Source: Streptomyces sp. NBC_01571 (GTDB taxonomy: Bacteria; Actinomycetota; Actinomycetes; Streptomycetales; Streptomycetaceae). Taken from it: a stretch of 64,000 nucleotides of DNA. This document shows, one piece after another, positions 36,503-55,425 of this stretch. The notes under the pieces are model-generated. The model worked only from the letters and a program-made list of their open reading frames with translations, had not been told where the DNA came from and ran no database searches. A program made the translations under genes and the position numbers. How positions within the stretch are numbered: the first letter of the stretch is position 1; each line of letters begins with the position of its first letter. Where the stretch lies: the NCBI RefSeq assembly GCF_026339875.1, contig NZ_JAPEPZ010000002.1, forward strand, positions 310,001-374,000, in the 5' to 3' direction.

Positions 36503-37213
36503 ATGAACTCCCCTTCGCCCTCCTCCCGCGATCGGCTGCGGTTCGCGACGTTCAACGTGCTGCACGGCCGCTCGATGCTGGACGGCCGCCCCGTGTCCCC
36601 GGCGGCCGGGGACGAGCCCGCGGAACCGCTCTCCCGTGCCGTCATGTCCCTGGACGCCGACGTCCTCGCGCTGCAGGAGGTGGACCGGTTCCAGGAGCGG
36701 TCGGGCCGGGTCGACCAGGCCCGCGCCGCGGCCCGGGCGGCGGGCCTGGACGAGTGGCGCTACGCGACGGCGCTGCACGGCCGTGCCTCCGGGGACCAGG
36801 GGTGGGACCTCGACCCGAAGGAGCCGGAACCGCGGATGTACGGCCCCCGGGACACCGGGACGGACGCCGGTGTCCCCTCGCACGGGCTCGCGCTGCTCAC
36901 CCGGCTGCCGGCGCGGGAATGGCGGGTCAGGCGGCTGGCCCCGGCGCCGCTCGGCATGCCCCTGCTCGTGCCCGGCAAGCCCGGCCTCACCCTGGTCCGG
37001 GACCGGACGCGCGCGGCGCTCGCGGCCGTACTCGAGGGGCCGCAAGGGCCGTTCACGGCCGTGGCGGTGCACCTGACGTTCGTGCCGGGGTGGAACGTCC
37101 GTCAGTTGTTGGAGGTCCGCGACTGGATCGCCGATCTGCCCCTGCCGCACGTCCTGCTGGGCGACTTCAACCTGGTCGGCGCCGCGCCCAGGGCCGTACT
37201 GAACGCGCCCCGG
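36503..37213 (+). pseudogene. 5' fragment of an endonuclease/exonuclease/phosphatase (EEP) family gene
   Basis: Reads about 237 codons of an EEP-superfamily protein: RFATFNVLHGRSMLDGRPV, DADVLALQEVDR (catalytic Glu), PSHGLALLTRLPA, VAVHLTF and LLGDFNLVGA (catalytic GDFN). It then breaks at NAPRG and continues in unrelated sequence that is antisense to an ISL3 transposase relic. The expected final segment with the SDH motif is missing here but appears in the same orientation at 55322-55425. ATG at 36503; binding site weak. Family members hydrolyse phosphodiesters in nucleic acids or lipids. Almost certainly inactive in this form. Confidence 0.85.
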
Positions 37214-37214
37214 G

Positions 37215-37340
37215 GTCCATCCAGGCAGGCAGTTCGTGGCCACGTAGTTCGCCCATCGTGCGGGCGAAGTCCCGGACGTGCCGTGCGGTGGCGTCGAGGT
37301 GCGGGCAGGCGGTGCGGATTTCTTTGACTTCGGCTGTCGT
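37215..37340 (-). pseudogene. ISL3-family transposase relic
   Basis: The frame reads VKEIRTACPHLDATARHVRD, then FARTMGELRGHELPAWMD, typical of the C-terminal helical region of ISL3-family transposases. It is cut precisely at the left junction with the EEP fragment. No inverted repeat was identified. Confidence 0.6.
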
Positions 37341-37384
37341 TCCTGGCGGACGCAGCGATGGCACCGGGCAGGGCGCAGTCGTCA

Positions 37385-38344
37385 CTAGTGCGGGAAGCGG
37401 CGGGGTGGGCGGGTGACTATGGATTCGCGGAACTCGGCGATCCGCGCATGGACTTGGCGCATCAGGTGGGTGTCCTCGATCCGGTCCAGGTAGAGGCAGC
37501 GGGCTGCCAGGCCCGGGAGGTCGAAGGCGAAGTACAGGGACATCAGCGGGTTCACGAACAACTCGCTGCCCCGGGTGCGGTCAGTGAACCGGACATCGCC
37601 GAACGAGCCGCGCACGGCTGCCGCGATGGAACCGTTCACGATGCTGGGGTGCTCCGGGGTGTGGTGCTGAGCGTGCGTCACCGCGTCAAGATAGAGAGCG
37701 CCCTCACGGGTGGCGCGCGGTATCGAGAACGCACCGAGGTACGCGCCGTCGCGCTCCAGCGCGGCGATGTTCTCCAGTACCTGCGTATGGTTTACGCCGT
37801 GGTAGGCGTCTACACCGAAGCCGACTGACACGACGAGCCGGGTCGGTATGCCGTCCAGCGCGGCCAGCGCCGCCACGCTCGTCAGGTCCTCCTCTGGAGT
37901 GCCGAGCCCGGCTTCATCGCCGCGCATCAAAATGTCCGTACCGCCGTCGACCAGCACCACAGCGTCGACGCGGTGCAGCTCGATCAGTGCTTGGTAGGCG
38001 GCGCGCAGCGGGCGCACCCCGGTCTGGGGGAAGGCGTACACGGTGAACGGGTAGCCGTGCTGGCGCAGCCACTGAGCGAGGGTCCGCTCCGGGAAGTAGC
38101 CCTGGTGCAAAGCGGAGTCGGGAGTGACGGCGGCCAGGTCGGGGGCGACCCAGTCATCGATCGGGAGACCGGCGAGTGCGCTGAAGGAGAGGTTCGCGAG
38201 ATATACCTGCTTGCCCTGGTGCAGGAGGGAGAGAGCCAACGGCAGGCCGGAGTAGATGTCGAAGCCGCCACCCGCGCCCGCGATGAGGATCCGTTCGGCA
38301 TCGGCGAGCCGGGTGAAGAGTGGGTTGGAGTGGAGGGACGTCAT
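37385..38344 (-). CDS. DUF1152 domain protein
   Basis: Protein of 319 residues: NPLFTRLADAERILIAGAGG, then GGFDIYSGLPLALSLLHQGK, VVLVDGGTDILMRGDEAGLG, and a middle segment DGIPTRLVVSVGFGVDAYHG. Glycine-rich start suggests a nucleotide- or cofactor-binding Rossmann-like fold; function unknown. ATG at 38344 (an ATG three codons earlier is possible); no convincing binding site. Flanked on both sides by transposase relics, so it may be cargo of a decayed element. Confidence 0.85.
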   Translation of the reverse strand: MTSLHSNPLFTRLADAERILIAGAGGGFDIYSGLPLALSLLHQGKQVYLANLSFSALAGLPIDDWVAPDLAAVTPDSALHQGYFPERTLAQWLRQHGYPFTVYAFPQTGVRPLRAAYQALIELHRVDAVVLVDGGTDILMRGDEAGLGTPEEDLTSVAALAALDGIPTRLVVSVGFGVDAYHGVNHTQVLENIAALERDGAYLGAFSIPRATREGALYLDAVTHAQHHTPEHPSIVNGSIAAAVRGSFGDVRFTDRTRGSELFVNPLMSLYFAFDLPGLAARCLYLDRIEDTHLMRQVHARIAEFRESIVTRPPRRFPH

Positions 38345-38495
38345 GACGATCATTGTCCGGGGACCCGACCCCGGGCGCTCCCGAGTTCTCGACGCGACGG
38401 CGGAGCCACGGAGTGACCGGAATCAAGACCTTCGACCCTCGACCGCCGAGAGTCGCGTGCCCTGTATCGGGACGGGCCGGCTGGGCTTCCGCCCC

Positions 38496-38800
38496 AGTCG
38501 TGGGTGGGCTGACAAGGCTTACGTCTCCTGCAAGAACCGGGCCTAGCTGCGTCGCCGCGGAATCCGCTGCACCGTCCCTGACAGCGGCGGCCAGGTGCGC
38601 AACCACCAGAAGCTCGGCTCCTGTGGTCGTCGGCTGCCGCATTTCGACCCGGCCGATTGCCGCGAGTGTCATGCGGTCGAGTGCGGGGGCAGCCGCCTCA
38701 TGAGGCACCGCGCTGTCGCCACCACATGCGACAGGCTCGCGGTCCGCGACCAGGCGACCGTCCTCGTCGCTGCCGTCAGCGAGTGGCTGTGGTCTTCGGC
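38496..38800 (+). pseudogene. IS5-family transposase relic with in-frame stop
   Basis: Reads WADKAYVSCKNRA-stop-LRRRGIRCTVPDSGGQVRNH, then HAVECGGSRLMRHRAVATTC and RLAVRDQATVLVAAVSEWL. This is the C-terminal third of an IS5-family DDE transposase, including the region of the catalytic Glu (HAVECG). The TAG at 38544-38546 replaces an expected Tyr codon. The N-terminal part is absent. Confidence 0.8.
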
Positions 38801-38802
38801 TG

Positions 38803-39324
38803 TCACGCGGTGGGGTCCACGTTCCATGTCGCAGGCAGATCGCTGCCGCAGAAGACACAGACGAAGTCGTCCTCGCGCACGATGTTGTGCTCCTGGCAGT
38901 CGGGGCACCGCCGGAACACCACTTCGTGGGTGAAGCCACAGGGCCGCTGAAGCTCCATATCGTCCAGAGCGCGGGCGACTGCCGCCCAGGAGGTGATGTC
39001 TGGGCAGTACCCGGTGGACTGGTTGCTGACCTCGCTCACGGCCCACCGGTCTGCCTCGCGCACGAAGCTGATCTCGCCCGCACTCAGAACCCTGTCTCCG
39101 CCGGCACAGGCCACGTGCTCGCTTCGCCGCGGTGCCAGTCGAAGCACACCGTCCCTACCGACCACGAAGGTGAACGGTTCGGCCAAATCCGCTGACGATC
39201 GCTCAGCGATCCAACCCTCGAAGTCAGCCGCCGAGCTGATCCGCCACCCGCCGCCACCAGGCGGGACCGCGGTCTTCAGCTCGACCGGTCCGACGTACCG
39301 GTAACTCCGTACCCGCGCACTCAC
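38803..39324 (-). CDS. hypothetical protein with C-terminal zinc ribbon
   Basis: Protein of 173 residues. The central part has the phrase AVSEVSNQSTGYCPD and the C-terminus a rubredoxin-like CPDC-x12-CVFC metal site (about 145-168). It resembles a recurrent actinobacterial hypothetical family; no function is known. GTG start at 39324 chosen (AGG nine bases upstream); a TTG at 39333 is possible. The gene abuts the end of the IS5 relic. Confidence 0.7.
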   Translation of the reverse strand: MSARVRSYRYVGPVELKTAVPPGGGGWRISSAADFEGWIAERSSADLAEPFTFVVGRDGVLRLAPRRSEHVACAGGDRVLSAGEISFVREADRWAVSEVSNQSTGYCPDITSWAAVARALDDMELQRPCGFTHEVVFRRCPDCQEHNIVREDDFVCVFCGSDLPATWNVDPTA

Positions 39325-39333
39325 GGCAGTCAA

Positions 39334-39716
39334 CCTAGAGCACTTCGGTCATGGCCAGGGTCATGTGACGGTGCCGACCCAGGTAACGGCGGACCTGGCC
39401 ACGCCGTCGAGTCTGGAGAACTTCCGCGGCCAGAGCAGTTGACAGCATCCGGTCACGATCCCGTGACGCCGCCTACTGCCTGCCGTGGTCAGGTAGTTGC
39501 ACAGTCGCCCCGCGCCGCCGGCCCGGTGCATTGCGCAGTGCCCGCGAGGGCGTTGGGCGTGCGCAGTCGGCCGCCCACGGGGCCGACCAGCACGGCGCCG
39601 GCGAAGGGGGGAACGGCCGTAGTCTGTGCCGGCTCCCCATCGGTCGGTCACCGCTGTTGCCTGCAGAAGGGTGAGGTTTCCCCGGACCATGCCCGCTGTC
39701 ATGGAGAGCGCGACGA
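39334..39716. other. intergenic, no gene recognised
   Basis: About 380 bases between the zinc-ribbon gene and the IS3 relic. No credible coding frame or repeat was seen. Possibly eroded mobile-element sequence. Confidence 0.3.
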
Positions 39717-39830
39717 TTACAGCACGACCGCGTCCGCCTTGAACTCCGGCGAGTAGTTCTTCATGACCACAAGATGTCTGATATCAGACCCTCAGGATCC
39801 AGTGTCTCGTGTGTCCAACATCAGGGGTCA
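39717..39830 (-). pseudogene. 5' end of an IS3-family element (orfA start)
   Basis: ATG at 39764 reads MKNYSPEFKADAVVL and then hits TAA at 39717-39719. MKNYPPEFKADAVALY is the classic start of IS3-family orfA. The upstream stretch TGATGTTGGACACACGAGAC looks like the element's terminal region. Only this end remains; the group II intron begins 11 bases away. Confidence 0.7.
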
Positions 39831-39840
39831 AGGCCGCCGA

Positions 39841-39909
39841 GTAGCCGAGGGGATTCTCACCCCTCGGCCCTCACAGATCCGTACGTGACGATCTCTCGTC
39901 ATACGGCTC
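39841..39909 (-). ncRNA. group II intron domains V and VI
   Basis: Domain V at 39876-39909 begins GAGCCGTATGACGAGAGATC and ends TCACGTACGGATC, a 34-nt hairpin with the AGC catalytic triad and GAGA-like tetraloop. Domain VI follows as GGCCGAGGGG-TGAGAAT-CCCCTCGGC with a candidate branch A, ending TAC. Confidence 0.85.
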
Positions 39910-39921
39910 TTGTCGTTCTGG

Positions 39922-41184
39922 TCACCAGACGCGGGGGGCATGGGTGGTCCAGGCCCAGTGGGCGAAGAACCGGGGTCGTCGTGCGACGGCCTGGTTCCAC
40001 GCCATTTGGGCTTTCTTCCTGCCCCGCAGTCGCTTGAACTTCTTGCGCATCCACCGCATCACGTAGGCGTTGACACGTTCCAGGAGGGGATGGAGGGCCG
40101 ACTGGTAGAAGGCCCCGTAGTACGCCATCCATCCCCGAATGATCGGGTTGATGAACCGTGCGAGGTCTGCTTCGGTCAGGCTGGTGCGGTGGTGCAGCCG
40201 CCAGGACCGCACCTCGGAACTGATACGGCGCAGGGCTTCCCCGCTGACGGCGGGGAGGAACGACCGGAACATCCGCCCGTCCTTGCGCACCGCGGAGCGT
40301 GTGCGGAAGGTGAACCCCAGGAAGTTGAACTCGGTCTGCTCGTACGAGGCACGCCGGTTGGCATCCTGGCAGTACACGATCCGGGTTTTCTCCGGGTGCA
40401 GTTCAAGCCCCACCTCGGTCATCCGCTTCTCGATCGCCTTGAGCACGAAGCGTGCCTGGCGTTCGCTGACGCAGTGGACCACCGCGTCGTCCACGTAGCG
40501 TTCGAACCCGATGGCGGGAAAGTTCCGCGCCATCCAGGAATCGAAGGCGTAGTGAAGGAAGAGATTGGCGAGGACAGGCGAAACCGAAGAGCCCTGGGGC
40601 GTCCCCCGGTCCCGCTCGCGCCGTGTCCCGTCGGGCAGTTGCAGCGGTGCGGCCAGCCAGCGCCGCACGTACAGCAGGACCCAGGACTGGGACGGATCAG
40701 TGTGGGCGGCGACCGCCTTGAGGACCAGATCCCACGGAACGCTGTCGAAGAACGCGCGAATGTCCAGGTCGATGACCCAGTCCGCCTTCCAGCAGCGCTC
40801 CCGGCACCGGCCTACAGCGTCGATCGCCGACCGCCCGGGACGATAGCCGTATGAGTCCGGGTGGAAGACCGGCTCGGCCTTCGCCTCCAGCGCCCCGGCA
40901 ACCACCGTCTGAGCAATACGATCCCCGATCGTGGGCACGCCCAAAATCCGGACGCCCCCTTTCTTCGGGATCTCCACCGCACGCACCGGGGGCGGGAAAT
41001 AGGTGCCGGAGGAGAGACGGTTCCAGATCCGGTACAGATTGTTCTTCAGATCCTTCTCGAACTCTTCCATCGACACCGCATCCACACCCGCTGCGCCCTT
41101 GTTCGACCTGACTTTCTCGTACGCCTCCCAGACGGACTGCTTCGAAATATCGAACGGCTTGCCTGATGCTTTCAACTCGTTCAC
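39922..41184 (-). CDS. ltrA: group II intron reverse transcriptase/maturase
   Basis: Protein of 420 residues. RT blocks are clear: NKGAAGVDAVSMEEFEKDLK, GGVRILGVPTIGDRIAQTVV, SYGYRPGRSAIDAV, DLDIRAFFDSVPW, GTPQGSSVSPVLANLFLH, and the catalytic FERYVDDAVVHC (YxDD, about 229). The group II maturase-specific region GWMAYYGAF is present. There is no C-terminal HNH endonuclease, so mobility would be endonuclease-independent. GTG start at 41184 with GGGAGGAG upstream. Confidence 0.93.
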   Translation of the reverse strand: MNELKASGKPFDISKQSVWEAYEKVRSNKGAAGVDAVSMEEFEKDLKNNLYRIWNRLSSGTYFPPPVRAVEIPKKGGVRILGVPTIGDRIAQTVVAGALEAKAEPVFHPDSYGYRPGRSAIDAVGRCRERCWKADWVIDLDIRAFFDSVPWDLVLKAVAAHTDPSQSWVLLYVRRWLAAPLQLPDGTRRERDRGTPQGSSVSPVLANLFLHYAFDSWMARNFPAIGFERYVDDAVVHCVSERQARFVLKAIEKRMTEVGLELHPEKTRIVYCQDANRRASYEQTEFNFLGFTFRTRSAVRKDGRMFRSFLPAVSGEALRRISSEVRSWRLHHRTSLTEADLARFINPIIRGWMAYYGAFYQSALHPLLERVNAYVMRWMRKKFKRLRGRKKAQMAWNQAVARRPRFFAHWAWTTHAPRVW

Positions 41185-41764
41185 GCGACTCCTCCCGGGA
41201 AACACCCGGTTGATCGAATAAACATAGTCACGAACGACCCGGCCCCTTCGCTCCACCCCCATTACAGGGGCTTCATCACTACTACGAGCCGGTCCGCCGG
41301 CGTGCCTGGCATCGGTACTCAGTCCCTCACGGCTTCGGACCGCCCGGGACGCTCCCTTCCCCCGCTCACCAGCGGAGACGTATCCAGACCCGCCTTCTCC
41401 TGTTCCGCACGAAGGCCGCAGACCGGGCTCGCGTCGCCTGCATGCCGGACACCGCCTGGCCAATAAACGGGCACCCGCCAGACTCCTCCCGGGACTGCCT
41501 TGACACCCCGGTTCTGATGTCAACTCTACTTTTCGACACGTCAGCAGCGATTCACTTGCGTTCGCCTTCCCGATCCCCACCTGACACCGTTTTCCGGCGC
41601 CTTTTCCTCATCGTTCACCACGGCAGTCTTCAGCTAGCGCAGCATGAGGTGGTTTAAATCCTCCCCCCGCAGGGCGAATTTGAAGGGCCAAACCTTCATC
41701 CTCCGTACAGCATCGCTACACGAAGAGTTCCTACATGCTTCTCCCTTTCGCGTTCAGGACACAA

Positions 41765-43556
41765 CAAGGCCGGGTAGTTAGCGTTTTCGCAGGTCACGCA
41801 AGGGGAGTTGGGGTCCATGCTGTGGCGGCGTAGAGGCCGGGGCCGAGTTTGTGGATGAGGCCGGTTTCGGCCCATCTGGACAGCTGTCGATACATGGTCT
41901 CCATGGTGATGTCGCCGAAATGGGAGGCGATGTCACGGGGGCGCCAGAGGCGGTTGGGGTCGTTCTCGAGCAGGGCCAGGATTCGGTGACGGCGGCGCTC
42001 GGTGAGGGCGGTGTGCCGGTCGTCACGGGAGACGGCGGGGAGCTGGGGGCGGGATTGCGGAGGCTCGAGGACGTTGATGTCGAGACCGGTGATGGTGCGG
42101 CTGGTGTCGGGCCTGCCGTCCTCGTGGCGGGTGCTGTAGCGGGACATCGGTGACTTGACCTTGCGGGTGCTGACCCGCCTGCGTCGGGGCGGGAGGAGAC
42201 GGGTCAGGATCCGGTGCCCGATCAGTCCGAGGTGACCGGCGTCGGCGGGGTCGGTGATGACGGCGGCGGCCTGGACGACCTGGTCGCGGGCGGTCTGGAG
42301 GGCGACGGTGAAGCAGCAGCGGTCCGGATCGGTGCCAGGCAGCGACTCTGCGGCCTCGACCATCATGGTGCGTAAGGCTTGGTAGAGGGTGAGCAAGGCC
42401 CACATCTCCTGCTCGATGCCTGCCGGGTCGCCCGAGCGGAGGTTGCTGCCGTTCATGATCGTGTGGCGGAGCGCGTAGTACGCGGATTCGTGTTCCCACC
42501 GCTGGTGATAGAGACCCACCAGGGCGGTGGCGGGGTGACGGCGGGCGTCGGTCAGGGTGGTGACCAGTCGGTAGGACCCGGTGAAGGATGTGCCGTCCGC
42601 GCAGGTCACGGCGATCTGTGCGTCGATGATCCGCACTTTCACGGTGCCGATCACCGACAGGTAGGAGCCGTCAGCGAGGCGGGTGAGGACCGGCGTGCGC
42701 CGGTTGCTGCGGAGCCGGCCCAGGACCTGGGCGCCGGTGTCGGTGACCTGAGCGAGGAAGGCGTTGCTGTCGAATCCTTTGTCCCACAGCACCAGCATGT
42801 CCGGCCGCAGCAGATGCAGCAGCCGGCCGGCGTAGCTCGTCTCGCCCTCGGCGGTGGGGCCGAACACCGCGCCGACCAGGGCCCGGGTGCCGGTCTCGAC
42901 CAGCGTCATCAACTCCAGCGTCGGATAGCCATGATGCGAAGTCCTGCCCAGCCAGGCCCGGTTCCGTTCGGAATCGGGCACCCTCAGCGAACTGCAGCCG
43001 TCGAACGACACCGTCCGGTACGGACCGAAACGCACACCTGGCGTCGTCGGACGGGCCAGCAACCCGGCCAGTACCTCGAACAACGCCCGCATCGGCGCGC
43101 TGCCGATCCGCCGGCGCAGGTCACGTAACGCCTTCGCCGACGGACAGGCCACTGGCATCCCGGACAGACCCGCGGTCAGCTTGTCCCAGACGAGGCGATA
43201 GCCGACCCCGGGGAACAGGCACATCGCCAGCAAGAAGTAGACCCCGACCCGCGACGGGAGATCACGCAGCCGCTGCTGCACCGTCCTCGTCTCCGCAAGG
43301 ACCGCGTCCACCAGCTCGAACGGCACGACGGCGGTCAGTTCCCCCAGATGCCCTGGAGCGAACCGGCCCGCAGCCACGGTGACCGTTCGGGTGATGGCCG
43401 TCAGCGGAGACGGCAGGACACAATGACGGGGCAACGGAGCTCCTTCGGGACAAGCTGTCCTGGTCGACTGCCTGTACCAACGAGCTCCGTTGCTCTGCGT
43501 CGGGAGTCCTTCAACTGGCTTGCGTGACCTGCGAAAACGCTAACTACCCGGCCTTG
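41765..43556 (-). mobile_element. IS4-family insertion sequence with 38-bp perfect inverted repeats
   Basis: Left end CAAGGCCGGGTAGTTAGCGT (41765-41802) is matched over 38 bases by its complement at 43519-43556. It encloses one transposase gene. No target duplication is seen: flanks are ACACAA on the left and GGTCAA on the right, suggesting later rearrangement or insertion followed by deletion. Confidence 0.88.
41794..43434 (-). CDS. IS4-family DDE transposase
   Basis: Protein of 546 residues. N-terminal domain (PFELVDAVLAETRTVQQRLR), first catalytic Asp region SFDGCSSLRVPD, second WDKGFDSNAF, and the IS4 signature with catalytic Glu YHQRWEHESAYYALRH, followed by a C-terminal winged-helix-like tail (ENDPNRLWRPRDIASHFGD). 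TTG start at 43434 with AAGGAG upstream. The stop codon lies inside the left inverted repeat. No frameshift seen, so the element may be active. Confidence 0.92.
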   Translation of the reverse strand: MPRHCVLPSPLTAITRTVTVAAGRFAPGHLGELTAVVPFELVDAVLAETRTVQQRLRDLPSRVGVYFLLAMCLFPGVGYRLVWDKLTAGLSGMPVACPSAKALRDLRRRIGSAPMRALFEVLAGLLARPTTPGVRFGPYRTVSFDGCSSLRVPDSERNRAWLGRTSHHGYPTLELMTLVETGTRALVGAVFGPTAEGETSYAGRLLHLLRPDMLVLWDKGFDSNAFLAQVTDTGAQVLGRLRSNRRTPVLTRLADGSYLSVIGTVKVRIIDAQIAVTCADGTSFTGSYRLVTTLTDARRHPATALVGLYHQRWEHESAYYALRHTIMNGSNLRSGDPAGIEQEMWALLTLYQALRTMMVEAAESLPGTDPDRCCFTVALQTARDQVVQAAAVITDPADAGHLGLIGHRILTRLLPPRRRRVSTRKVKSPMSRYSTRHEDGRPDTSRTITGLDINVLEPPQSRPQLPAVSRDDRHTALTERRRHRILALLENDPNRLWRPRDIASHFGDITMETMYRQLSRWAETGLIHKLGPGLYAATAWTPTPLA

Positions 43557-43704
43557 GGTCAAGGCCCGAGAGACCGGCAGCACGCCGAGGCCTGGAGCTC
43601 GGCGCACCGGCAACGTCGCAACGGCCCGCCCCGAACGAGCCGGGGACACGACCGGCGAACTGCCGAACGGACAGAGCCGGCCCGATCCCGCTGACAACTC
43701 GCGG

Positions 43705-44715
43705 CTAAGCGACCGTGAGTACAAGCTTGCCCTGGATGTGTCCTCGGGCGGCGCGTTCGTGCGCGCCTCGGGCGTCCGCGAGTGCGAACGTGCTGTCGAT
43801 CGCGACCCGGACTGTGCCCGTGTCGAGCAGGCGTCCCAGTTCGGCGAGCTGCGCGCTGTTCGAGCGGACCGTGGTGCCCGTGACGGTGACGCCCAGCTTC
43901 GCGTTCTCTTCATCGTCGAATTCGCCGAAGAATACGGGGAACTGGGAGCCGCCGCGCTTGAGCGTGCGCAGGAAGCGCCTGCTGTCGGGGCCACCGACGG
44001 CGTCGAGAACGAGGTCGACGTCGCGGACGAGTTCTTCGGGGCGGCTCTTGGTGTAGTCGATGAACTCGTCGGCACCGAGCCCGCGCAGGAACGATTCATG
44101 CGCGCTCGACGCCACCGCGATGACACGTGCGCCCTTCCATTTCGCCAGTTGGAGCGCGAAGTGCCCCACGCCGCCCGCGGCGCCGTTGATGAGCACCGTC
44201 GCGTTGGCGTCGAGCGGCACCGGGCGATGCTGCGCCGCCTGGAAGGGCGACGGGTGATCGTGTCCGAGCTCGATCAGGTACTGCCACGCGGTGAGTCCGG
44301 ACATGGGCGCCCCGGCAGCGTGGACGTGATCGATGCCGGCGGGCTTGAGCGTGAGGTCCGACGCGGGCGCGGCCACGTACTCGGCATAGGTGCTGCCCTC
44401 GAAGCCGGGGAAGCGAAGGAGGCCGAAGACTTCGTCGCCGACGGAGAAGCCGTCCACATCCGCGGCGACGGCCTCGACGACGCCCGACAGGTCCGTCCCC
44501 GGGATCGTGGGCAAACTGAACTTCGGCCTCGTCTCCGGAGGCAGGTTGGACATCCCGTCGCGCAGGTACCAGTCGGGGGGGTTGATGCCGACCGCGTGCA
44601 CGCGAACGAGCACCTCACCCGGCCCCGGCTGGGGAATCGGCACCTCGTCGTAACGCAAGACTTCAGGGCCGCCGTGCCCATGCAGCCGGATCGCCCTCAT
44701 CGTGTGTATCGGCAT
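43705..44715 (-). CDS. zinc-independent quinone oxidoreductase-like MDR protein
   Basis: Protein of 336 residues of the medium-chain dehydrogenase/reductase superfamily. N-terminal GroES-like fold (HGHGGPEVLRYDEVPIPQPG, GINPPDWYLRDGM, PTIPGTDLSGVVEAV) and a Rossmann NADPH motif NGAAGGVGHFALQLAKWKGA. No zinc ligands, so an NADPH:quinone or enone reductase is expected. ATG at 44715 with AGGAGA upstream. Divergent from a TetR gene, with a triple-site operator between them; very probably TetR-controlled and induced by a reactive electrophile. Confidence 0.92.
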   Translation of the reverse strand: MPIHTMRAIRLHGHGGPEVLRYDEVPIPQPGPGEVLVRVHAVGINPPDWYLRDGMSNLPPETRPKFSLPTIPGTDLSGVVEAVAADVDGFSVGDEVFGLLRFPGFEGSTYAEYVAAPASDLTLKPAGIDHVHAAGAPMSGLTAWQYLIELGHDHPSPFQAAQHRPVPLDANATVLINGAAGGVGHFALQLAKWKGARVIAVASSAHESFLRGLGADEFIDYTKSRPEELVRDVDLVLDAVGGPDSRRFLRTLKRGGSQFPVFFGEFDDEENAKLGVTVTGTTVRSNSAQLAELGRLLDTGTVRVAIDSTFALADARGAHERAARGHIQGKLVLTVA

Positions 44716-44751
44716 CGTTTTCTCCTGCCCGCGCTGCGGATAGACTCATTC

Positions 44752-44806
44752 GGATCAGTGGTCCATATATTCGGACCACTGATCCGAATATATGGACCAC
44801 TGATCC
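44752..44806. promoter_or_regulatory. three-site operator between oxidoreductase and TetR genes
   Basis: The 13-bp sequence GGACCACTGATCC occurs at 44773-44785 and 44794-44806, and inverted at 44752-44764. Starts are exactly 21 bp apart, two helical turns. The sites combine into a 17-bp palindrome arm pair TGGTCCATATATTCGGA/TCCGAATATATGGACCA. AT-rich ATATAT cores between the sites probably contain the -10 regions of both promoters. Expected binding site of the adjacent TetR protein. Confidence 0.85.
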
Positions 44807-46674: not shown

Positions 46675-47362
46675 CGCGCCGCTCCGGCAAACGCACAGTG
46701 CATTATTTCCGCCACATAAGTAAATCCATGTCATTGCAAAAGGGAGATTCCTGAAACAGCCACTCTAAAAAGTGAAGTGGAACCGTCCCGCTCACCGGCG
46801 GACCGCTACCTGCCTATACCCAATCCACGCGGGATGTGATCACGCGTGGCGGGACATGCGGAAATGCGTCGGCTGAGGCTGCGTGTACGTCACGGCCGAA
46901 CAGGCGAGCGGGCAGCCGCTGACGCGGACTGCCGTACCGGCCACGCCTGTTGGACCCACAGACCATCTCAGACCATCTCCGCGCAGAACCCAAGTAGCGG
47001 GGCGCGCGCATGCCTCGCCGGCTGGGGCGGCGGCGGATCCGATTTCCTTGCTGTCGTCCAGGCACCGGCATGTGATCGCGCCGACGACCCTTTCGCCCTT
47101 TCCGCCTCGACGAGGATCAAGCTGCGTTGTGCATGGGCGGTTACTCAGCGACAGGGAAAGGGGGCCTGCCAGAACCTGGACCAGCAGACCATGACCGAGA
47201 TAGGCCTCTTTGACCGCCCACAGGCGCCTTCTCGAATGGTTCTCTGGATTGCAGGTCAGCACAGAGCCCGCAGGCTCACCGACCGAGGCACGAAACCCCC
47301 GTTCACCCCCCTGGTGACGCATTGGGAATATTCCACCGAAGTCAAGAAACAAGGACATCCCC
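46675..47362. other. intergenic, no gene recognised
   Basis: About 690 bases between the MmyB-type and VOC genes. Open frames exist but resemble no family and have no binding sites. A less GC-rich segment spans about 46690-46790. It holds the VOC promoter and possibly eroded insertion DNA. Confidence 0.3.
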
Positions 47363-47833
47363 ATGGAACTGAAGCTCGAAATGATCGTGATGCCCGTCTC
47401 CGACATCGACCGGGCCAAGGCCTTCTACGAGAAGGTCGGATTCCGCCTGGACGTGGACTACACGGCCAGCCAGGACTTCCGAGCTGTGCACTTCACGGCG
47501 CCCGGCTCCGAGTGCTCGATCATCTTCGGCGAGGGGATGACACCCATCGCACCCGGCTCGCTCCAGGGCCTGTATCTCATCGTCTCCGACATCGAGGAAG
47601 CCCGCGCGGAGCTCGTCGGCCGCGGCATCGAAGTCAGCGAGATCTTCCACGACGCCAACCTCTTTTTCCACGGCCACGAGGACGGGGACGTCACCCACCG
47701 GTCCCCCGGCCAGGAGCGACTGGCCGGACTGCACCCCGAGCGCGCCTCCTACGGCTCCTTCCTCACCTTCAGCGACCCGGACGGCAACGGCTGGGTGCTC
47801 CAGGAGGTCACGCAGCGCCAGCCCGGCCGCTGA
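47363..47833 (+). CDS. VOC-superfamily (glyoxalase/bleomycin resistance) protein
   Basis: Protein of 156 residues with two beta-alpha-beta-beta-beta units: LKLEMIVMPVSDIDRAKAFY EKVGF-type start, then LQGLYLIVSDIEEARAELVG, and the end segment LTFSDPDGNGWVLQEV. VOC proteins bind a metal and act as dioxygenases, lyases or antibiotic-binding proteins; reaction not assignable. ATG at 47363 with AAGGA upstream. Regulated perhaps by the MmyB-type protein encoded divergently. Confidence 0.9.
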   Translation: MELKLEMIVMPVSDIDRAKAFYEKVGFRLDVDYTASQDFRAVHFTAPGSECSIIFGEGMTPIAPGSLQGLYLIVSDIEEARAELVGRGIEVSEIFHDANLFFHGHEDGDVTHRSPGQERLAGLHPERASYGSFLTFSDPDGNGWVLQEVTQRQPGR

Positions 47834-48187
47834 CAACCCCAGAAGTTGCCGCCCAAGAGCTGCCGTCCGCTCCGGCCCAGCGGCTGTCGCGATCCGGGCC
47901 GAGCGCGGCACCGGACCACCAGGCGGCGCGGGGGTGCTCCCCGCCGCCCGGTCGTCCCCCCTGCCACGGCGGCTTTGGCGGCCGGTACGGGGCGCCGAGA
48001 GACGGCTTTGCCGGCGGGGCCGTCCCGTCCCGTGACCCCGCCCGCTCGACCCCGTGCGGCGCCGCGGCCCTGGCGCCGTCCGGCGGCGGGTATCGGCAAA
48101 CGCGGCCGTCAACGGGCCGCGGCGGCCGGAGTGTCCGACCGAGTCACGGAAGCAATGAGGAACGAAACAGTGAGGAACGCAGCAGTG
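47834..48187. other. intergenic with imperfect hairpin
   Basis: About 350 bases between the VOC and flavin reductase genes. An imperfect GC-rich hairpin near 47920-47947 could terminate the VOC transcript. The 13-mer GAGGAACGAAACA-type element appears twice just before the next gene. Confidence 0.3.
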
Positions 48188-49627
48188 ATGAACGAGACAA
48201 CCCGCACCTACGACGTGATCGTCATCGGCGGGGGGCCGGTCGGCGAGAACGTGGCCGAACGCGCTCGTGCCGCGGGGCTCAGCACCGTGGTCGTAGAACG
48301 CGAACTCCTCGGCGGCGAGTGCTCGTTCTGGGCCTGCGACCCGAGCAAGGCACTGCTGGGGCCGGTGGTGGCACGTGCCGACGCGAGCCGCGTACCCGGA
48401 CTCGACCCGGCGGTGGCCGGCCCGCTGGACGTCGAGCGGGTCCTCGCGCACCGCGACAAGATGTCCTCGTACTGGAAGGACGAGGACCAGGTCGAGTGGC
48501 TGAACTCGGTCTCCGTCGACCTCATACGCGGCCACGGCCGCCTCATCGGCCCCAAGCAGGTGGCCGTGCAGACTCCTGAGGGCGACACCGTCATGCTGAC
48601 CGCCCGGCACGCCGTCGCCGTCTCCACCGGCACCCGCGCCGCCCTGCCCCCCATCCCCGGACTCGACACCGGCCGCCCCTGGACCAGCCGCGAGGCCACC
48701 ACAGCCGACAAGGTGCCCGGCCGCCTCGCCGTCGTCGGAGGCGGTGTGGTCGCCGTCGAGATGGCCACCGCCTGGCAGGGCCTCGGCTCCCAGGTCACCA
48801 TGCTCGTCCTCGACAACGGACTCCTCGAGCGGATGGAGCCGTTCGCCGGCGAACTGGTCACTGACACCCTGCGCGAAGCAGGCGTCGACATCCGCTTCAA
48901 CACCGCCGTCACCTCACTGGACCGCACGGGCGGCCAGGACGGCGAGGTGCGGATCAAGCTCTCCGACGGCGGGCAGCTGGCCGCGGACGAGATCCTGCTG
49001 GCGACCGGCCGCGCACCGCAGACCCGCGACGTCGGCCTGGAGACCGTCGGTCTCACCCCCGGAGACTGGCTGACCGTCGACGACACCTTCCAGGTCACCG
49101 GCGTCGACGGCGGCTGGCTCTACGCCGTCGGCGACGTCAACCACCGCGCCCTGATGACGCATCAGGGCAAGTACCAGGCCCGGATCGCCGGCACCGTCAT
49201 CGGCGCCCGCGCCAAGGGAGAGCCCATCCACGACGCCCCCTGGGGCGCGCATGTCGCCACCGCCGACCACGCGGCCGTCCCCCAGGTCGTCTTCACCACC
49301 CCTGAGATCGCCTCCGTCGGGCTGACCAGCCGTGAGGCCGAGCAGAGCGGGCGCCGCATCGAAGTCGTCGACTACGACCTCGCCCGCGTCGCCGGCGCCC
49401 ACCAGTACGGCGAGGACTACCGCGGCCGGGCCCGCATGCTCATCGACACCGACCGCAACACCGTGGTCGGCGTCACCTTCGCCGGCCCCGGCGTCGGTGA
49501 GCTGGTGCACTCGGCCACCATCGCGGTCGCAGGCGAGGTGCCCCTCGACCGGCTCTGGCACGCCGTCCCCGCCTTCCCCACCCTCGGCGAGGTCTGGCTG
49601 CGGCTGCTGGAGACCTACCGCGGCTGA
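48188..49627 (+). CDS. FAD-dependent pyridine nucleotide-disulfide oxidoreductase
   Basis: Protein of 479 residues: FAD motif YDVIVIGGGPVGENVAERAR, redox-active disulfide GGECSFWACDPSKALL (Cys-x4-Cys), NAD(P) motif RLAVVGGGVVAVEMATAWQG, second FAD contact WLYAVGDVNHRALMTHQGKY, and dimerisation domain (VVFTTPEIASVGLTSREAE to TLGEVWLRLLETYRG). Related to dihydrolipoamide dehydrogenase and mercuric reductase, but the dimer-domain His-Glu pair is less canonical. No mercury genes nearby. ATG at 48188; GTG one codon earlier has better spacing. Probably a disulfide or quinone reductase. Confidence 0.9.
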   Translation: MNETTRTYDVIVIGGGPVGENVAERARAAGLSTVVVERELLGGECSFWACDPSKALLGPVVARADASRVPGLDPAVAGPLDVERVLAHRDKMSSYWKDEDQVEWLNSVSVDLIRGHGRLIGPKQVAVQTPEGDTVMLTARHAVAVSTGTRAALPPIPGLDTGRPWTSREATTADKVPGRLAVVGGGVVAVEMATAWQGLGSQVTMLVLDNGLLERMEPFAGELVTDTLREAGVDIRFNTAVTSLDRTGGQDGEVRIKLSDGGQLAADEILLATGRAPQTRDVGLETVGLTPGDWLTVDDTFQVTGVDGGWLYAVGDVNHRALMTHQGKYQARIAGTVIGARAKGEPIHDAPWGAHVATADHAAVPQVVFTTPEIASVGLTSREAEQSGRRIEVVDYDLARVAGAHQYGEDYRGRARMLIDTDRNTVVGVTFAGPGVGELVHSATIAVAGEVPLDRLWHAVPAFPTLGEVWLRLLETYRG

Positions 49628-49852
49628 GCATGCTCCGCCCGGCATGCGGGGTGGTCCTGGCCTCCACCGGGTGACTCGGTCGTCTGCGGGTGAGGAACGA
49701 TCCTCCTGTCCTGGTGGCCGGCAGTGGCGTGCCCGTGGGCACGGATCGGACCGAGGGCTCCGGATGAGCGCAAGGTGCTGTACCGAATCGTCTTCTCCGG
49801 CGTCCGGTGCAACAGTTCCCCGCTGAACGCAGCTCCGGCACGGTCTGCTGGT
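49628..49852. other. untranslated region after the flavin reductase
   Basis: No gene recognised. A small inverted GCATGC pair lies at 49628-49650. Confidence 0.25.
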
Positions 49853-49886
49853 GGGCGTTGCGGGGCTTCGCAGCCCCGCAACGCCC
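49853..49886 (+). terminator. strong hairpin terminator
   Basis: A 15-bp perfect stem (GGGCGTTGCGGGGCT with its complement) around TCGC, 225 bases after the flavin reductase stop and 207 before the next gene. Confidence 0.7.
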
Positions 49887-50093
49887 GCTCTCCGGGCCTC
49901 ACTTGAACTTGACGTCGATCACCGCAAATGTGGATCTTGGCTTCGGAGGGGGCGGGGTTCGCAGTCGCGGGCGAGGCGTGCATCACTCCAGCCGAAGAAT
50001 GACCTGGCGGAGACGAACAACCGGCCCGACTCTCTGCAGGCCTGATCAGCGATCATCGTGTCGCACGTTCACAATGTCCGAAGGGGGAACACG

Positions 50094-50840
50094 ATGATTT
50101 CTGAGCCGGAGATGGCTGGAGAGCCCGGCCCGATGGAGACCCGCGAGGTCGTGGGCGACTTCAGCAGTGAGCCTGTCGGTCGACGACGGCCGCGCAAGTC
50201 GTGGTTGTGGGCGCTGGGAGGTGTGGTGGCGGCATCGGCGCTGTGGGCGCCGGCCGTGTTCGTCTACGGACTGGGCGCTCAGACGCCCAGCACGCACGGA
50301 TACCGGCTCGACAAGGACCCCTGCTCCTCCGTACGACTGGCGTCGATCAGCGCTGCCATCGCACCGAGGGTATCCGCCGATGTCGTCGACTCCGGGCTGT
50401 TGAAGCATCCCGCCGTCGACCAGGCCCAGTGCTCCATAGCGGTACGGCCGCTGGCTAAGGCAAAGCAGTCCAAGACCGGGTGGTCTCTGGACTACTACGT
50501 CGGCATCACCGTGACACTGCACAAGGAGACCGACCCTGGCGTCGAGTTCGAAGCACGGCAGCGGACGACCGATCAGGGCATCGTCCCGGCCGACAACGTC
50601 AAGACTGTTCCAGACCTCGGCGACACGGCGTACCTGATCACCCGGGACACCAGCAACACCGAGTTGCGGGTCCTGGAAGGCGGAGCGGTCCTCTCCCTGA
50701 CCCTGGCCGCCAGCAGCAGCTACCAGAGCGAAGACACCGACGACGACATCGGTGAGGGGCCTGAGATCCCTGATGTGTCTTCCTACCAGTCAGCCTTGGT
50801 CAACGACATGCGTGACCTGATGACAAGCCTCAAGCGCTGA
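50094..50840 (+). CDS. single-pass membrane protein with extracytoplasmic domain
   Basis: Protein of 248 residues: cytosolic N-terminus of 35 residues, one membrane helix (LWALGGVVAASALWAPAVFV YGLG, about 41-64) and an exported domain containing two cysteines (DPCSSVRL and AQCSIAV), a likely disulfide. Resembles the Streptomyces family of small DUF3558-like anchored proteins, without certainty. ATG at 50094 with GAAGGGGG upstream. Confidence 0.8.
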   Translation: MISEPEMAGEPGPMETREVVGDFSSEPVGRRRPRKSWLWALGGVVAASALWAPAVFVYGLGAQTPSTHGYRLDKDPCSSVRLASISAAIAPRVSADVVDSGLLKHPAVDQAQCSIAVRPLAKAKQSKTGWSLDYYVGITVTLHKETDPGVEFEARQRTTDQGIVPADNVKTVPDLGDTAYLITRDTSNTELRVLEGGAVLSLTLAASSSYQSEDTDDDIGEGPEIPDVSSYQSALVNDMRDLMTSLKR

Positions 50841-51056: not shown

Positions 51057-53378
51057 TCATGCAGGGTCCGCGGCGTCGTTCTGCCGCTCTGTCGCCGCCC
51101 CTGTCGGTTGCTCTGCCCAGACGGTCTTTCCCTGGGTTCGGGAGCGGGTGCCCCACTGGTCCGCGAGGCTCGCGATGATGAACAGGCCCCGACCTGTCTC
51201 GTCGACAGTGCGGGCGTGTTTCACCTGCGGGGAGCTGGTTGCGGTGTCGCTCACCTCGCAGGTCAGCATCCGCTCGAAGATCAGCCGGAGCTGGAAGGGT
51301 GGAGCGCCGTGGCGGACCGCGTTGCCGACGAGCTCGCTGACGATGAGCTCGGTGGTGAACGCCGTTTTCTCGTCCACGTCCCATGCCTCCAACTGGCGGC
51401 GGGCCGCTGCGCGGGCGATCGGCGCGGCCTCGGCGTCAGCGGGCAGGTCGCGGGTCAGTACGCGGTCGTGGGGCAGCGCTTTCGTGCGGGCGAGCAGCAT
51501 CAGTGTCTCGCCGGTGCGGTCGTTGTCTGTGAGCGTGTGCGCGATGTCGTCGCACACGTCTCGCAGTGGCCTGGTGCCGATGCTGTCCAGGAACGGGTGC
51601 AGGGAGCCGGACGGCGCCAGGACCTCGTCGGCGAGTGCGGCCGTGCCCATCGCCAGAGTGGTGCCTTCGGGGAGGCTGACGGTGATCGCAGGGAATGGTG
51701 CGCTGCCCGGTTCGGCGAGTGGTGGACCTGGGGGAACCGACAAAGAGGCCGAGGTGCCGTCGGGAAAGACCGCGACCGGATCGGGAAGGCCGGCGCGGGC
51801 GACGGTGCAGGTGAGATCGACGGGGTCGTAGATCGCGATGACGCATCTGGCCGTGAGCGGTTCGCGGTTCACCGGGTCCGGGGGCAGTGCCGCCCGCGCT
51901 GCCGCCAGGCGGGCGGTGGTATCACTGAGGCGCGCCAGCAGTTCGTCTGGCTGCAGGTCCAGATCAGCGAGGGTATGGATCGCCGTCCGCAGGAGTCCCA
52001 TCGTGATAGCTGCCGCGATGCCCTTTCCGGCCACGTCGCCAACGATCAGCGCGGTCCGTGCACCGGGCAGCGCGATCGCGTCGGACCACGCGCCGCCGCC
52101 CTCCGGGTCGGGAATGTGCAGTTGGGAGATCTCCGCCGTGGCGTGCGTGGCGGGCTGGTGAGGAAGGAGTCTGCGCTGCACGGTTCGTGCGGTGATCCAC
52201 TCGCGCATGAACTGACGGGCGTTGTCGATGCAGAGCGCAGTGTGCGCGCACATGGCGGATGCCACTGCGACGTCCTCCTCTTCGAAGGGGTCTTCCTCCT
52301 GGTAGCGGTAGAAGCTGACGAGGCCCAGAGCATGGCCGCGCAATGCCAGCGGAGCCACGATCAGAGAATGGGCACCGGCTCGTCTGATGACGTCGGCTCG
52401 GGCCGGGTCGGCGGCCAGCCACGAATTGTCCTCATCGATCTTCGCGAGGCACGGTCGCAGGTCGGCCAGAACGTCCGAGAAGGGGGTGCCGACCGGCAAA
52501 GAGCGCTTGACGCCGACCGGGGGACCCCCGATCCGGCCTCGGAAGGCTGCTCGGCGCAGGAGAGCGTCCCGGTGGACCGGTACCGAGGGAGGTTCCTCTC
52601 CCCGGACGACGCCTTCGATCACTTCGACGTCCGCGATGCCCGCGAAAGCAGGTACTACCGCATCGACCAGTTCCGAACAGACGTGCATCACGTTCAGCAG
52701 GTGCCCCACCTGCGTGCGGACCGTGTCCAGGAGAGCCAGACGATTCTGTGCGTTTTCCCGTTCTGTGACGTCGAGCGCCGATGTCACCAGGCCGACTACC
52801 TCGCCGGCGGAGTCCTCCAAGCGGAGGTAGGAGACAGAGCAGATGCGGCGCGTAGGCCGATCTGGTGCCTTGTCGCGCCGGACGAGCCGGTTCACCACCG
52901 GTTCCCCGCTCTCCAGGACCCTTTGCGCCACGGCGGCTTCTTCCTCCGGGTCCGAGAATTCACACGCCTCGGTGAAATGCGTGCCCAACAGGTGCCGTAC
53001 GGACGTGTCATGCCGTTCGCCGGCGATGGTGCTCATGCGGACCACGCGCAGCTGGTTGTCGAGGACGTACAGCCGCACGGGAGAATGGGTGAACACAGCT
53101 TTCAAGATCGCCGCGTCCTGCCCCGGCATGGCGTCGCCAGCCGCGAGGACCTGCCACACGACGGACGTACCTCGCAGTACTGGCTTGACCAGCACCGCAG
53201 CCGCATCCGAGAACTTCCCGCGCCATTCGCCGCCGGCAGCGGCCTCACGCATCAGCGTGGCCACCTGCCGGCCAAGGGCCTCCTGGGCAGACCACCCGAA
53301 CAGATCCTCAGCCGGACGCCCCCACTCGATCACCCGGCCACTCTCATCAATGAGCACGAGCACGTCACCGCTGGGCAT
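51057..53378 (-). CDS. PAS-PAS/GAF-SpoIIE-HATPase signalling protein with degenerate phosphatase site
   Basis: Protein of 773 residues: a short PAS (VLIDESGRVIEWGRPAEDLF), a second PAS (SPVRLYVLDNQLRVVRMSTI), GAF (about 240-410), PP2C-like (about 420-630) and HATPase (about 640-760; LIVSELVGNAVRHGAPP, TGRGLFIIASLADQWG). The ATG at 53378 follows GGAGGTG. Metal-ligand motifs are altered: GGAWSD, GDVAGKG kept, TDG loop absent (GTAALAD), terminal DD replaced by GE. It is a longer paralogue of the gene at 1-2104 and lies inside the island, so this family has members on both sides of the boundary. Confidence 0.88.
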   Translation of the reverse strand: MPSGDVLVLIDESGRVIEWGRPAEDLFGWSAQEALGRQVATLMREAAAGGEWRGKFSDAAAVLVKPVLRGTSVVWQVLAAGDAMPGQDAAILKAVFTHSPVRLYVLDNQLRVVRMSTIAGERHDTSVRHLLGTHFTEACEFSDPEEEAAVAQRVLESGEPVVNRLVRRDKAPDRPTRRICSVSYLRLEDSAGEVVGLVTSALDVTERENAQNRLALLDTVRTQVGHLLNVMHVCSELVDAVVPAFAGIADVEVIEGVVRGEEPPSVPVHRDALLRRAAFRGRIGGPPVGVKRSLPVGTPFSDVLADLRPCLAKIDEDNSWLAADPARADVIRRAGAHSLIVAPLALRGHALGLVSFYRYQEEDPFEEEDVAVASAMCAHTALCIDNARQFMREWITARTVQRRLLPHQPATHATAEISQLHIPDPEGGGAWSDAIALPGARTALIVGDVAGKGIAAAITMGLLRTAIHTLADLDLQPDELLARLSDTTARLAAARAALPPDPVNREPLTARCVIAIYDPVDLTCTVARAGLPDPVAVFPDGTSASLSVPPGPPLAEPGSAPFPAITVSLPEGTTLAMGTAALADEVLAPSGSLHPFLDSIGTRPLRDVCDDIAHTLTDNDRTGETLMLLARTKALPHDRVLTRDLPADAEAAPIARAAARRQLEAWDVDEKTAFTTELIVSELVGNAVRHGAPPFQLRLIFERMLTCEVSDTATSSPQVKHARTVDETGRGLFIIASLADQWGTRSRTQGKTVWAEQPTGAATERQNDAADPA

Positions 53379-53544
53379 CCGAAAACACCTCCGCCCCCAT
53401 GCCTGCCCTCGCTGCGCCGGAGACTGGTCCGCTCGTCCGCCAGTTACACCGATCGGCTCAGCACGCGCCACACGAAAACTGTCGGCCTGCTCCCGATGGC
53501 CGAGCTCGTTGTCCTGACGGCAGTGGGGGCATCGGGCACCGGCC
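53379..53544. other. short region upstream of the SpoIIE-like gene
   Basis: No gene recognised; holds the promoter of the minus-strand SpoIIE-like gene and the left break of the CtaG fragment. Confidence 0.25.
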
Positions 53545-53850
53545 GCTGAAAGCACACTTCCTCGCGTCCGGATGCCTGTTCGCCAACGTCATCGCCGGTC
53601 CCGACCCCGCACCTACCCGGCCCGGGGTACGGACCCGCCTGGTGTATCTGGGCGTCGCGATCGCCGTACATGCCCTGATCGCACAAGCCGTGTACGGCGG
53701 ATTCTTCGTCGACATCCACGCTCCCGTCGTCCAGGTCCAGCAGGGCGCCGAGATCATGTACTACGGCGGAGACTTCGCCGAACTCCTCCTGGCCGCAGCA
53801 CTCGTAGCGACCTGGCGCCCCGGACGCCACACCGCCGCTACCTGCATGCC
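53545..53850 (+). pseudogene. C-terminal fragment of a CtaG-like cytochrome c oxidase assembly protein
   Basis: Reads LKAHFLASGCLFANVIAGPD, RLVYLGVAIAVHALIAQAVY, then QGAEIMYYGGDFAELLLAAA LVATWRPGR, the final helices of caa3-type CtaG membrane proteins. The N-terminal two thirds and any start are missing, and the frame runs on into unrelated sequence. A truncated relic. Confidence 0.75.
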
Positions 53851-54128
53851 CCGAGACAAGACGATCGGCATGGCAGCCGCACCACACCGAGCATCCGTCG
53901 CACGAGGCGCAGGGGACTTGCAGGACAGGACTGTTCGCGGTGCCCTCAGCCGTGCGCGGCCCTCTCTCGGTGCCCGAGCCACCCACTGCGCTACGAGAAC
54001 CGCTGTGGCGGACCGGTTCAGGGCCAGACAGGCCTTGCTGCCGGCGGCTGAACATCGAACGGCGGCGGATGCGCATGTCTGCCCTTCCTCGATGTCGGTC
54101 AGGGACTGAAGGCACCGGGGGGCGGGAT

Positions 54129-54266
54129 TCAGAAGGAGATTTCGTCGGCCGGGCAGATGTGGGCGTCCATGTTGAGGCTCATCATGCGCAGCGCCGCGTG
54201 GGCGAGATCGGCTTGGACGTGGACCACAGCGTCCTCGGGAACCGTTACCCGGAGGTGGTCCGCCGA
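54129..54266 (-). pseudogene. 3' fragment of an unidentified gene
   Basis: A 45-codon frame with natural composition reads DHLRVTVPEDAVVHVQADLA, then HAALRMMSLNMDAHICPADE ISF and stops. It has no start codon or binding site and is preceded by an in-frame stop. Looks like the end of a broken gene; family not recognised. Confidence 0.4.
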
Positions 54267-54489
54267 TCACGGGCTTACCGAACCCGAGCAGCGGATTACA
54301 CCCTTGGCCCTAGGCGCCCCGGACCTGCCGCAGGATCACGCGGCGCAGCAGGGGTCAGGCGCTGAACGCGGTGGCCTGGGGGCGCGCCGCAGGCGGCGCT
54401 CTGCGCCGGGACCTCGGGTCCGCTGTCGCCCGTCGAGTCTCGCCTCCGGCACGGAAGACTTGATGATGCCCCCCGGGACGCGCCTGTCG

Positions 54490-55035
54490 TCAGTCGGCGG
54501 CCTCCTCCGCCAGGGTGGTGTACCGCTGCCGCGCCCACAACGGCAGCACCACCCAGCACGCGAGGTACCAGGCCACCACCCCGCCGACCAGCCACGGGAC
54601 GAAGCCGTCATGCGTGGCCACCCGCAGGATCAGGAACAAGGCCGAAGTGAGCGTGGCAATCAGCAGCGCCAGGCCGATGAAGGTGAGCCGCGCGGCCCAG
54701 CGCACTGCCTGCGCCTTGATACTGCGGCCAGACACCCACCGGTGAAACGGGACCGGTGCGATGAGTGCACCGGTCGCAGTCGCGCCGAGCACGACCGTGG
54801 TGATGTAGATGATCCGGTCCATGTCGGACAGGTGTCCGAAAGCCGGCGTAAAGGCCACGCTCAGCAGGAAACCGAAGAGGATTTGGACACCAGTCTGCGC
54901 GACCCGAATTTCCTGCATCAGTTCGTTCCACTGCCGGTCGGCGCGCTCAGCCTCGGACTCCTGTCGGCGCGCCTGCTCGGCTCCTTCTGATACCCAAGCC
55001 GCTGGTATCGCTTCCGAAACTCTGCCGTCCAACAC
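54490..55035 (-). CDS. DUF6328-type membrane protein
   Basis: Protein of 181 residues: a charged coiled N-terminus (EQARRQESEAERADRQW), then four membrane helices (QILFGFLLSVAFTPAFG, IIYITTVVLGATATGALIAP, LTFIGLALLIATLTSALFLI, WLVGGVVAWYLACWVVLPLW). The order E-L-x5-VAQTGVQILFGFLL is the hallmark of this actinobacterial family, whose function is unknown. GTG at 55035 or TTG one codon later, after GGGAGGGG. Confidence 0.85.
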   Translation of the reverse strand: MLDGRVSEAIPAAWVSEGAEQARRQESEAERADRQWNELMQEIRVAQTGVQILFGFLLSVAFTPAFGHLSDMDRIIYITTVVLGATATGALIAPVPFHRWVSGRSIKAQAVRWAARLTFIGLALLIATLTSALFLILRVATHDGFVPWLVGGVVAWYLACWVVLPLWARQRYTTLAEEAAD

Positions 55036-55099
55036 GACCCCTCCCGGTGTCTCGTCCGTGTCGGCATGTACCCCCGATCGCCGCATTCGTGCACACCGA

Positions 55100-55335
55100 A
55101 TTGACCATGTGTTGACCTCTCGACGCGGTCCGCGGCCCGGCCGCAGCAGCGTGCAGGCGCAGAGCGTGGCACCGTCGAAGCCCTGTGGGGCCCGTCCCCA
55201 GGCCCTCAGCCAGAGATCCGCAGCGGCGGTCAGATTCGGCCAGTGCAGATCACCGTGCACGGTGGTCCAGGAAGTCACGACCGGGGCCGGCATTTTCACG
55301 AACTCGGGGATGGCTCGGGCCATGTACGCCTCGCG
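55100..55335 (-). pseudogene. fragment of an APH/ChoK-type phosphotransferase
   Basis: Minus strand reads REAYMARAIPEFVKMPAPVV, TSWTTVHGDLHWPNLT, then WGRAPQGFDGATLCACTLLR. HGDLHxxN is the catalytic loop of aminoglycoside/homoserine-type phosphotransferases. The following DWE metal site reads LWLRAWG, and no N-terminal lobe is present. A relic sitting exactly at the right junction of the island. Confidence 0.7.
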
Positions 55336-55425
55336 GACGGCGGCGCGGGGGCGGTCGGCGCCGCGGGCACGGCGCGGACGGCGATCTCGGACCACCGCCC
55401 CCTGGTGGTCGAGCTGTCGCTGTGA
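55322..55425 (+). pseudogene. 3' fragment of the split EEP-family gene
   Basis: Reads VRLADGGAGAVGAAGTARTA, ISDHRPLVVELSL and stops. SDHRPL is the C-terminal catalytic motif of EEP proteins, and the sequence fits the missing end of the gene broken at 37213. Same strand, no start codon. Confidence 0.75.

Follow-up and report, generated by a model that had tools for sequence, protein, structure and literature searches.

An interrupted EEP gene and its intact homologues

Streptomyces sp. NBC_01571 (11.54 Mb in 15 contigs) carries on contig NZ_JAPEPZ010000002.1 a chromosomal gene of the EEP family, for an enzyme of the exonuclease/phosphatase type, whose two pieces lie 18.1 kb apart. The window, by which we mean the whole 64,000-nucleotide stretch that was analysed (contig positions 310,001 to 374,000), holds both pieces and the DNA between them (Table 1). 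The left piece encodes the first three quarters of a protein of the EEP family and, as a first sequence-only reading of this DNA had proposed, ends after the GDFN motif (E 2e-11, profile 1–157 of 225, up to the GDFN region). Its frame reads on past 37213 into the inserted DNA and stops at 37325–37327. The gene shares with the EEP superfamily the PF03372 profile match, the GDFN motif and the C-terminal SDH motif, but differs in being split, with the segment before the residues HV lost and the tail 18.1 kb away, so that no one reading frame contains the complete domain.

Table 1 Features of the interrupted EEP locus, in window coordinates (IS, insertion sequence).
Feature	Position	Strand	Evidence and remarks
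EEP-family gene, N-terminal piece	36503..37213	+	PF03372; 86% identity to intact 311-aa P0004; 237 codons
Left edge of inserted DNA	37214..37378		Read-through peptide identical to P0003 over 37 residues; no Pfam family
DUF1152 gene block	37379..38454	-	PF06626; 97% to genome G071; 96% in two Streptomyces plasmids (1.7 and 2.4 Mb)
893-bp block: IS5 transposase 3' end (+, to about 38792) and small gene (38803-39333, -)	38454..39346		Plasmid matches 82-87%
IS3-type remnant, orfA start (approximate limits, by eye)	39690..39825	-	Frame with MKNYSPEFKADAVVL; similar frame beside the IS4 copy of locus L093
10-bp IS4 target duplication GGTCAAGGCC, left copy	39826..39835	+	Sequence comparison
Group II intron with reverse transcriptase/maturase (39922-41580)	39836..41764	-	RF01999, RF00029, TIGR04416; ends within a few bases, from other copies
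Complete IS4-family element	41765..43556	-	Transposase 41794-43434; perfect 38-bp inverted ends
10-bp IS4 target duplication GGTCAAGGCC, right copy	43557..43566	+	Sequence comparison
ADH (-), TetR (+), MmyB-type regulator (-), VOC (+), FAD disulfide reductase (+)	43667..49877		Pfam; plasmid NZ_CP108854
Hypothetical protein	50058..50840	+	No family found
SpoIIE-type phosphatase with PAS, GAF and ATPase domains	51057..53555	-	PF07228, PF08448, PF13581; 83% in two plasmids
CtaG C-terminal half, gene fragment (approximate limits)	53530..54000	+	PF09678, profile 130-235 of 237
DUF6328 gene	54490..54963	-	PF19853, whole profile
Possible gene fragment	55130..55320	-	Frame read by eye; no Pfam family
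EEP gene, C-terminal piece	55321..55425	+	34 codons with SDH motif (55321-55422), stop 55423-55425; C-terminal model, translation
14-bp tandem array, EEP stop to Sua5	55470..55660		Repeat search
Sua5/YrdC gene, first intact right-flank gene	55748..56368	+	PF01300; 91% protein identity in NBC_01549

Of 7999 candidates scored against the protein of the N-terminal piece, 264 were homologues at E ≤ 1e-60, the best 120 of them being listed. The gene is rare: at E ≤ 1e-40 it occurs in 13 of 392 genomes, the present one counted, and within its own genome the window was the only match to this protein at E ≤ 0.001. Two intact proteins of 311 residues served for comparison: P0004 from Streptomyces sp. 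NBC_01455, in a cluster of 19 members, and P0005 from Streptomyces sp. NPDC059466, 80% identical to the N-terminal piece.

The C-terminal piece was scored among 2537 segments with a model built from the C-terminal columns of 119 homologues. It reached E 1.2e-11, and the runner-up, a different EEP gene of this strain, 1.7e-4. With a full-length model the tail alone scored 2e-5 and was outranked by an EEP gene elsewhere in the genome that matched over its whole length (9.5e-10), a weakness to be expected of a tail of about 30 residues. That the tail derives from one of the 15 other EEP places in this genome was considered and rejected, the C-terminal model favouring the subfamily of the window gene by seven orders of magnitude over the best of them. 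The sequence-only reading had placed an EEP-type frame at 55322–55425; the tail does belong to the same EEP subfamily, but its frame begins at 55321 and the frame of 55322 is not EEP.

In P0004 and P0005 the motif LNAPR is followed by 29 residues ending in QFD, then by HV and a tail running to ELSL. The window has LNAPR in the left piece and HV...ISDHRPLVVELSL, 34 codons, in the right piece. Compared with P0004 and P0005, 29 codons (~87 bp) are missing; counting the residue that precedes HV as an altered D would lower this to 28. A deletion, which had been part of the original proposal, is well supported, but its proposed size of 40–60 codons disagrees with these closest intact homologues. Linker length varies in the family: the 98 of 119 homologues in which both landmarks were found would put the loss at 19–65 codons (median 37), with 28 of them in the range 40–60.

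The same break occurs in Streptomyces sp. NPDC002769, whose 272-residue EEP protein (P0003) is 95% identical to the window protein (P0001), the two differing at 11 aligned positions, of which two are gaps. The read-through ends are identical at 37 of 37 residues. Because this junction is shared, the left break is older than the split of the two strains and inherited, not private to the window genome. P0003 bears the database name of an EEP-family protein; it is a truncated protein, and inserted DNA supplies its final 37 residues. The left edge of the inserted DNA (37214–37378), in which this end is encoded, is perhaps a transposase remnant. With its C-terminal SDH motif cut off, the truncated EEP protein would probably be inactive.

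Composition of the inserted DNA

The comparison of GC content inside and outside the interval, which the sequence-only reading had recommended, gave a lower value inside (67.4%) than to the left (71.7%) or right (71.3%), and this value lies below all 96 overlapping 18.1-kb windows taken to the left (71.3–72.3%). The interval is a composite of blocks with different nearest relatives: the DUF1152 gene, the IS5 and IS3 remnants, the IS4 element with its intron, a plasmid-type block, the SpoIIE gene and the CtaG fragment. The 893-bp block abuts the DUF1152 block at 38454, and in the plasmids (two read in detail) it starts inside an annotated IS5 transposase.

Positions 43705–49817 match NZ_CP108854, a 1.51-Mb linear plasmid of strain NBC_00841, in four pieces covering 67% of a 7478-base query at 89.6% identity. 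Gene order and orientation are kept except in the body of the MmyB-type gene, where the plasmid has a VOC-like piece instead and the match is confined to the end of MmyB and the sequence upstream of it. The SpoIIE gene lies 11 kb further on along that plasmid, inverted and adjoining a second VOC–reductase copy. In S. cadmiisoli and genome G192 the ADH–TetR pair is reversed and directly adjoins VOC. Between ADH and TetR lies an inverted repeat (44748–44810; 31-bp arms, 94%) that recurs beside the same genes at loci L062, L066, L136 and L140 and is perhaps a TetR operator.

A cargo search, with two candidates scored per genome and 199 genomes covered, gave some match at E ≤ 1e-80 in 187 of the 199, the reductase gene being the commonest among the matches listed. 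In the host genome, where scoring two candidates leaves room for further copies, it reported besides the window itself only IS4 and intron pieces on contig C6.

The sequence-only reading counted at least four transposase relics and three gene fragments in the interval. Two of the relics are supported, the IS5 3' end (38454–38792) and the IS3 orfA start near 39.7 kb; apart from EEP, one gene fragment stands, the C-terminal half of CtaG, and the others found no support. Five relic peptides of the window, including both edges, matched no Pfam family at E ≤ 1. The fragment at 55130–55320 is possibly of kinase type. Translated comparison with related loci yielded weak scattered pieces at most edges, of which no use was made, and a near-mode search of a phage collection gave no match that would point to a phage origin.

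The IS4-type element, described as intact from the outset, proved complete, with a transposase above the NF033592 cut-off that carries PF13006 and PF01609. It resembles other IS4-family elements in its transposase domains, inverted ends and 10-bp duplication, but differs from them in that one end directly adjoins a group II intron. On the plus strand the order is GGTCAAGGCC, intron, IS4, GGTCAAGGCC, one 10-bp duplication enclosing both. Full-length IS4 copies at 84–89% identity occur in five other genomes; an exact 10-bp duplication accompanies two of the five (L092 and L093) and none accompanies the other three. The copies in the window, L092 and L093 all lie beside an IS3-type end (type assigned by eye).

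The group II intron, likewise anticipated, shows the expected RNA domains (RF01999 and RF00029, above gathering score) and a reverse transcriptase/maturase above the TIGR04416 cut-off. A second, truncated intron–IS4 pair, 99.8–100% identical, lies on contig C6 (L060:2290–4058). At E ≤ 1e-40, 32 of 392 genomes contain the 5' part of the intron. Any special standing of the intron was rejected on the variety of its targets, as the 5' exons that could be read, 25 from 24 of 30 loci (six of the loci being partial), differ, several lying in transposase-like frames by eye. Among the four copies at about 94% identity or more, three (window, C6 and genome G121) follow CTAACTACCCGGCCTTG and the fourth (G196, 113 bases compared) does not.

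The EEP–Sua5 interval in relatives

The sister-strain comparison that had been suggested found an intact EEP gene and collinear flanks on both sides in Streptomyces sp. NBC_01549 (DNA identity 89% for the M4 peptidase gene, 88% for Sua5, 81% for PucR and 90% for HSP70). The order there is SpoIIE, M4 peptidase, EEP, 14.5 kb of other DNA, then Sua5, PucR and HSP70. Nine open reading frames (ORFs) scanned in the 14.5 kb include P450, MFS, NUDIX, 6PGD, three dehydrogenases and a DDE transposase. The window flanks are collinear also with congener G448, again with order and strand kept, and G448 is arranged like NBC_01549, with 13.4 kb of similar content between EEP and Sua5. Its EEP gene (L132, about 8280–9300) is frameshifted near the start, not split by an insert, and was dropped as a clean intact control; from this frameshift the EEP gene seems to have been lost more than once.

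In a further congener, G546, the SpoIIE and M4 genes and an EEP frame that is open from start to stop, as in NBC_01549, are followed by more than 24 kb of other DNA (L133 and L135, from L133:9203) with ISL3, DDE_3 and Tn3 transposases, a resolvase, an nSTAND1 gene and other cargo; no match to Sua5 was found in the 34 kb read. In S. rhizosphaerihabitans (L045) and Streptomyces sp. M41 (L046), SpoIIE and Sua5 stand about 5.6 kb apart, and the stretch read between them contained no EEP match. Since relatives carry differing DNA between EEP and Sua5, 13–15 kb in some and over 24 kb in another, this interval is variable and has been altered recurrently. In G448 and G546 the contigs measure 11.0 and 11.9 Mb and EEP stands 0.94 and 1.2 Mb from their starts, which suggests a chromosome-arm position. 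It seems doubtful to us that the interval represents a true hot spot at which accessory DNA inserts in this Streptomyces clade and that the intron lineage homes to an IS4-family end sequence, travelling on IS ends.

How the gene was broken

We consider it highly probable that the EEP gene was broken by the entry of accessory DNA with the loss of ~87 bp (29 codons), and that this DNA was of the kind found on large plasmids and was then built up by insertions. The observations that carry this reading are the two EEP pieces, the collinear flanks, the intact homologues, the left junction shared with a second strain, the enclosure of IS4 and intron in one duplication, and the differing relatives of the blocks. 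Recombination with plasmid or arm DNA, either illegitimate or by way of IS copies, most likely exchanged about 87 bp of the gene for such DNA. Accessory DNA of the large Streptomyces plasmid kind would then have grown by several insertions, a step of which part can be seen in the interval; the simplest order would place the EEP break first, IS4 later and the intron last, at the left end of IS4. The sequence-only reading had spoken of an acquired or assembled island. An accessory segment splitting the EEP gene agrees with the intact homologues, the collinear flanks and the lower GC, but its unity is less supported, given the different nearest relatives, the nested IS4 and intron, and a stretch from 43.7 to 49.8 kb that is largely one plasmid-collinear block.

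Several points weigh against our reading. No relative was found with EEP directly beside Sua5 and no insert, even when 392 genomes were sampled in the genus a second time, which gave G448 and G546 instead, and the empty site must be supposed, as NBC_01549 and G448 hold other DNA between the two genes. NPDC002769 has no entry among the best 120 of the 187 SpoIIE matches. Most of the cargo genes are represented widely in the genus, which makes a plasmid source a suggestion and no more. There is also no firm sign of excess decay in the N-terminal piece, which has changed in 1 of 64 conserved columns, equal to intact P0004 and P0005 (P0003, 3 of 64; 117 background proteins, 0–3), and loss of function would follow solely from the missing end.

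The unbroken stretch of low GC, with its transposases and cargo, might suggest that the 18.1 kb is instead one discrete mobile element (an integrative element or a composite transposon) that inserted into the EEP gene in a single step, but we judge this very unlikely. Such an element should have its own recombinase and defined ends or a duplication. Neither a site-specific recombinase nor a relaxase or replication gene was found among the 20 window ORFs given to Pfam, and no target duplication encloses the whole interval. Direct repeats at the outer junctions reach at most 5 bp and inverted repeats 8 bp, a length seen in 12% of random pairs. In the light of the missing recombinase and outer duplication the interval is probably not one mobile element, and the 29 lost codons and the differing relatives of the blocks speak against it too.

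We give scarcely any credence to a chromosomal inversion or translocation that separated the EEP pieces and left native arm DNA between them. The wide occurrence of the cargo in the genus (187 of 199 genomes) would suit it, but both flanks keep the order and strand of NBC_01549 and G448, and the host genome beyond the window yielded, with two candidates scored, the C6 pieces alone. An assembly error or chimera, for which the near-identical second copy of the intron and IS4 pieces on C6 might be cited, is extremely improbable, since the same left junction recurs in P0003, making a fault there unlikely, and IS4 lies kilobases from both outer junctions.

Entry of accessory DNA into the EEP gene fits the picture of fast arm turnover that has been described for Streptomyces, whose chromosome ends and arms show gene flux between conspecific strains (PMC6722414, PMC8627663, PMC7205883). 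Large insertions and deletions and frequent transfer between related strains are common to those variable arms and to this locus, which differs in that the break of a single gene can be placed to the codon and two strains have its left junction in common. This is ordinary genome turnover, well resolved, and not a new kind of system. It provides a codon-level example of the loss of a chromosomal gene to accessory DNA in Streptomyces and a relative date for the EEP break, which falls before the split from NPDC002769. It also exposes a database EEP protein, P0003, as truncated, and marks the EEP–Sua5 interval as a place where related strains differ in DNA.

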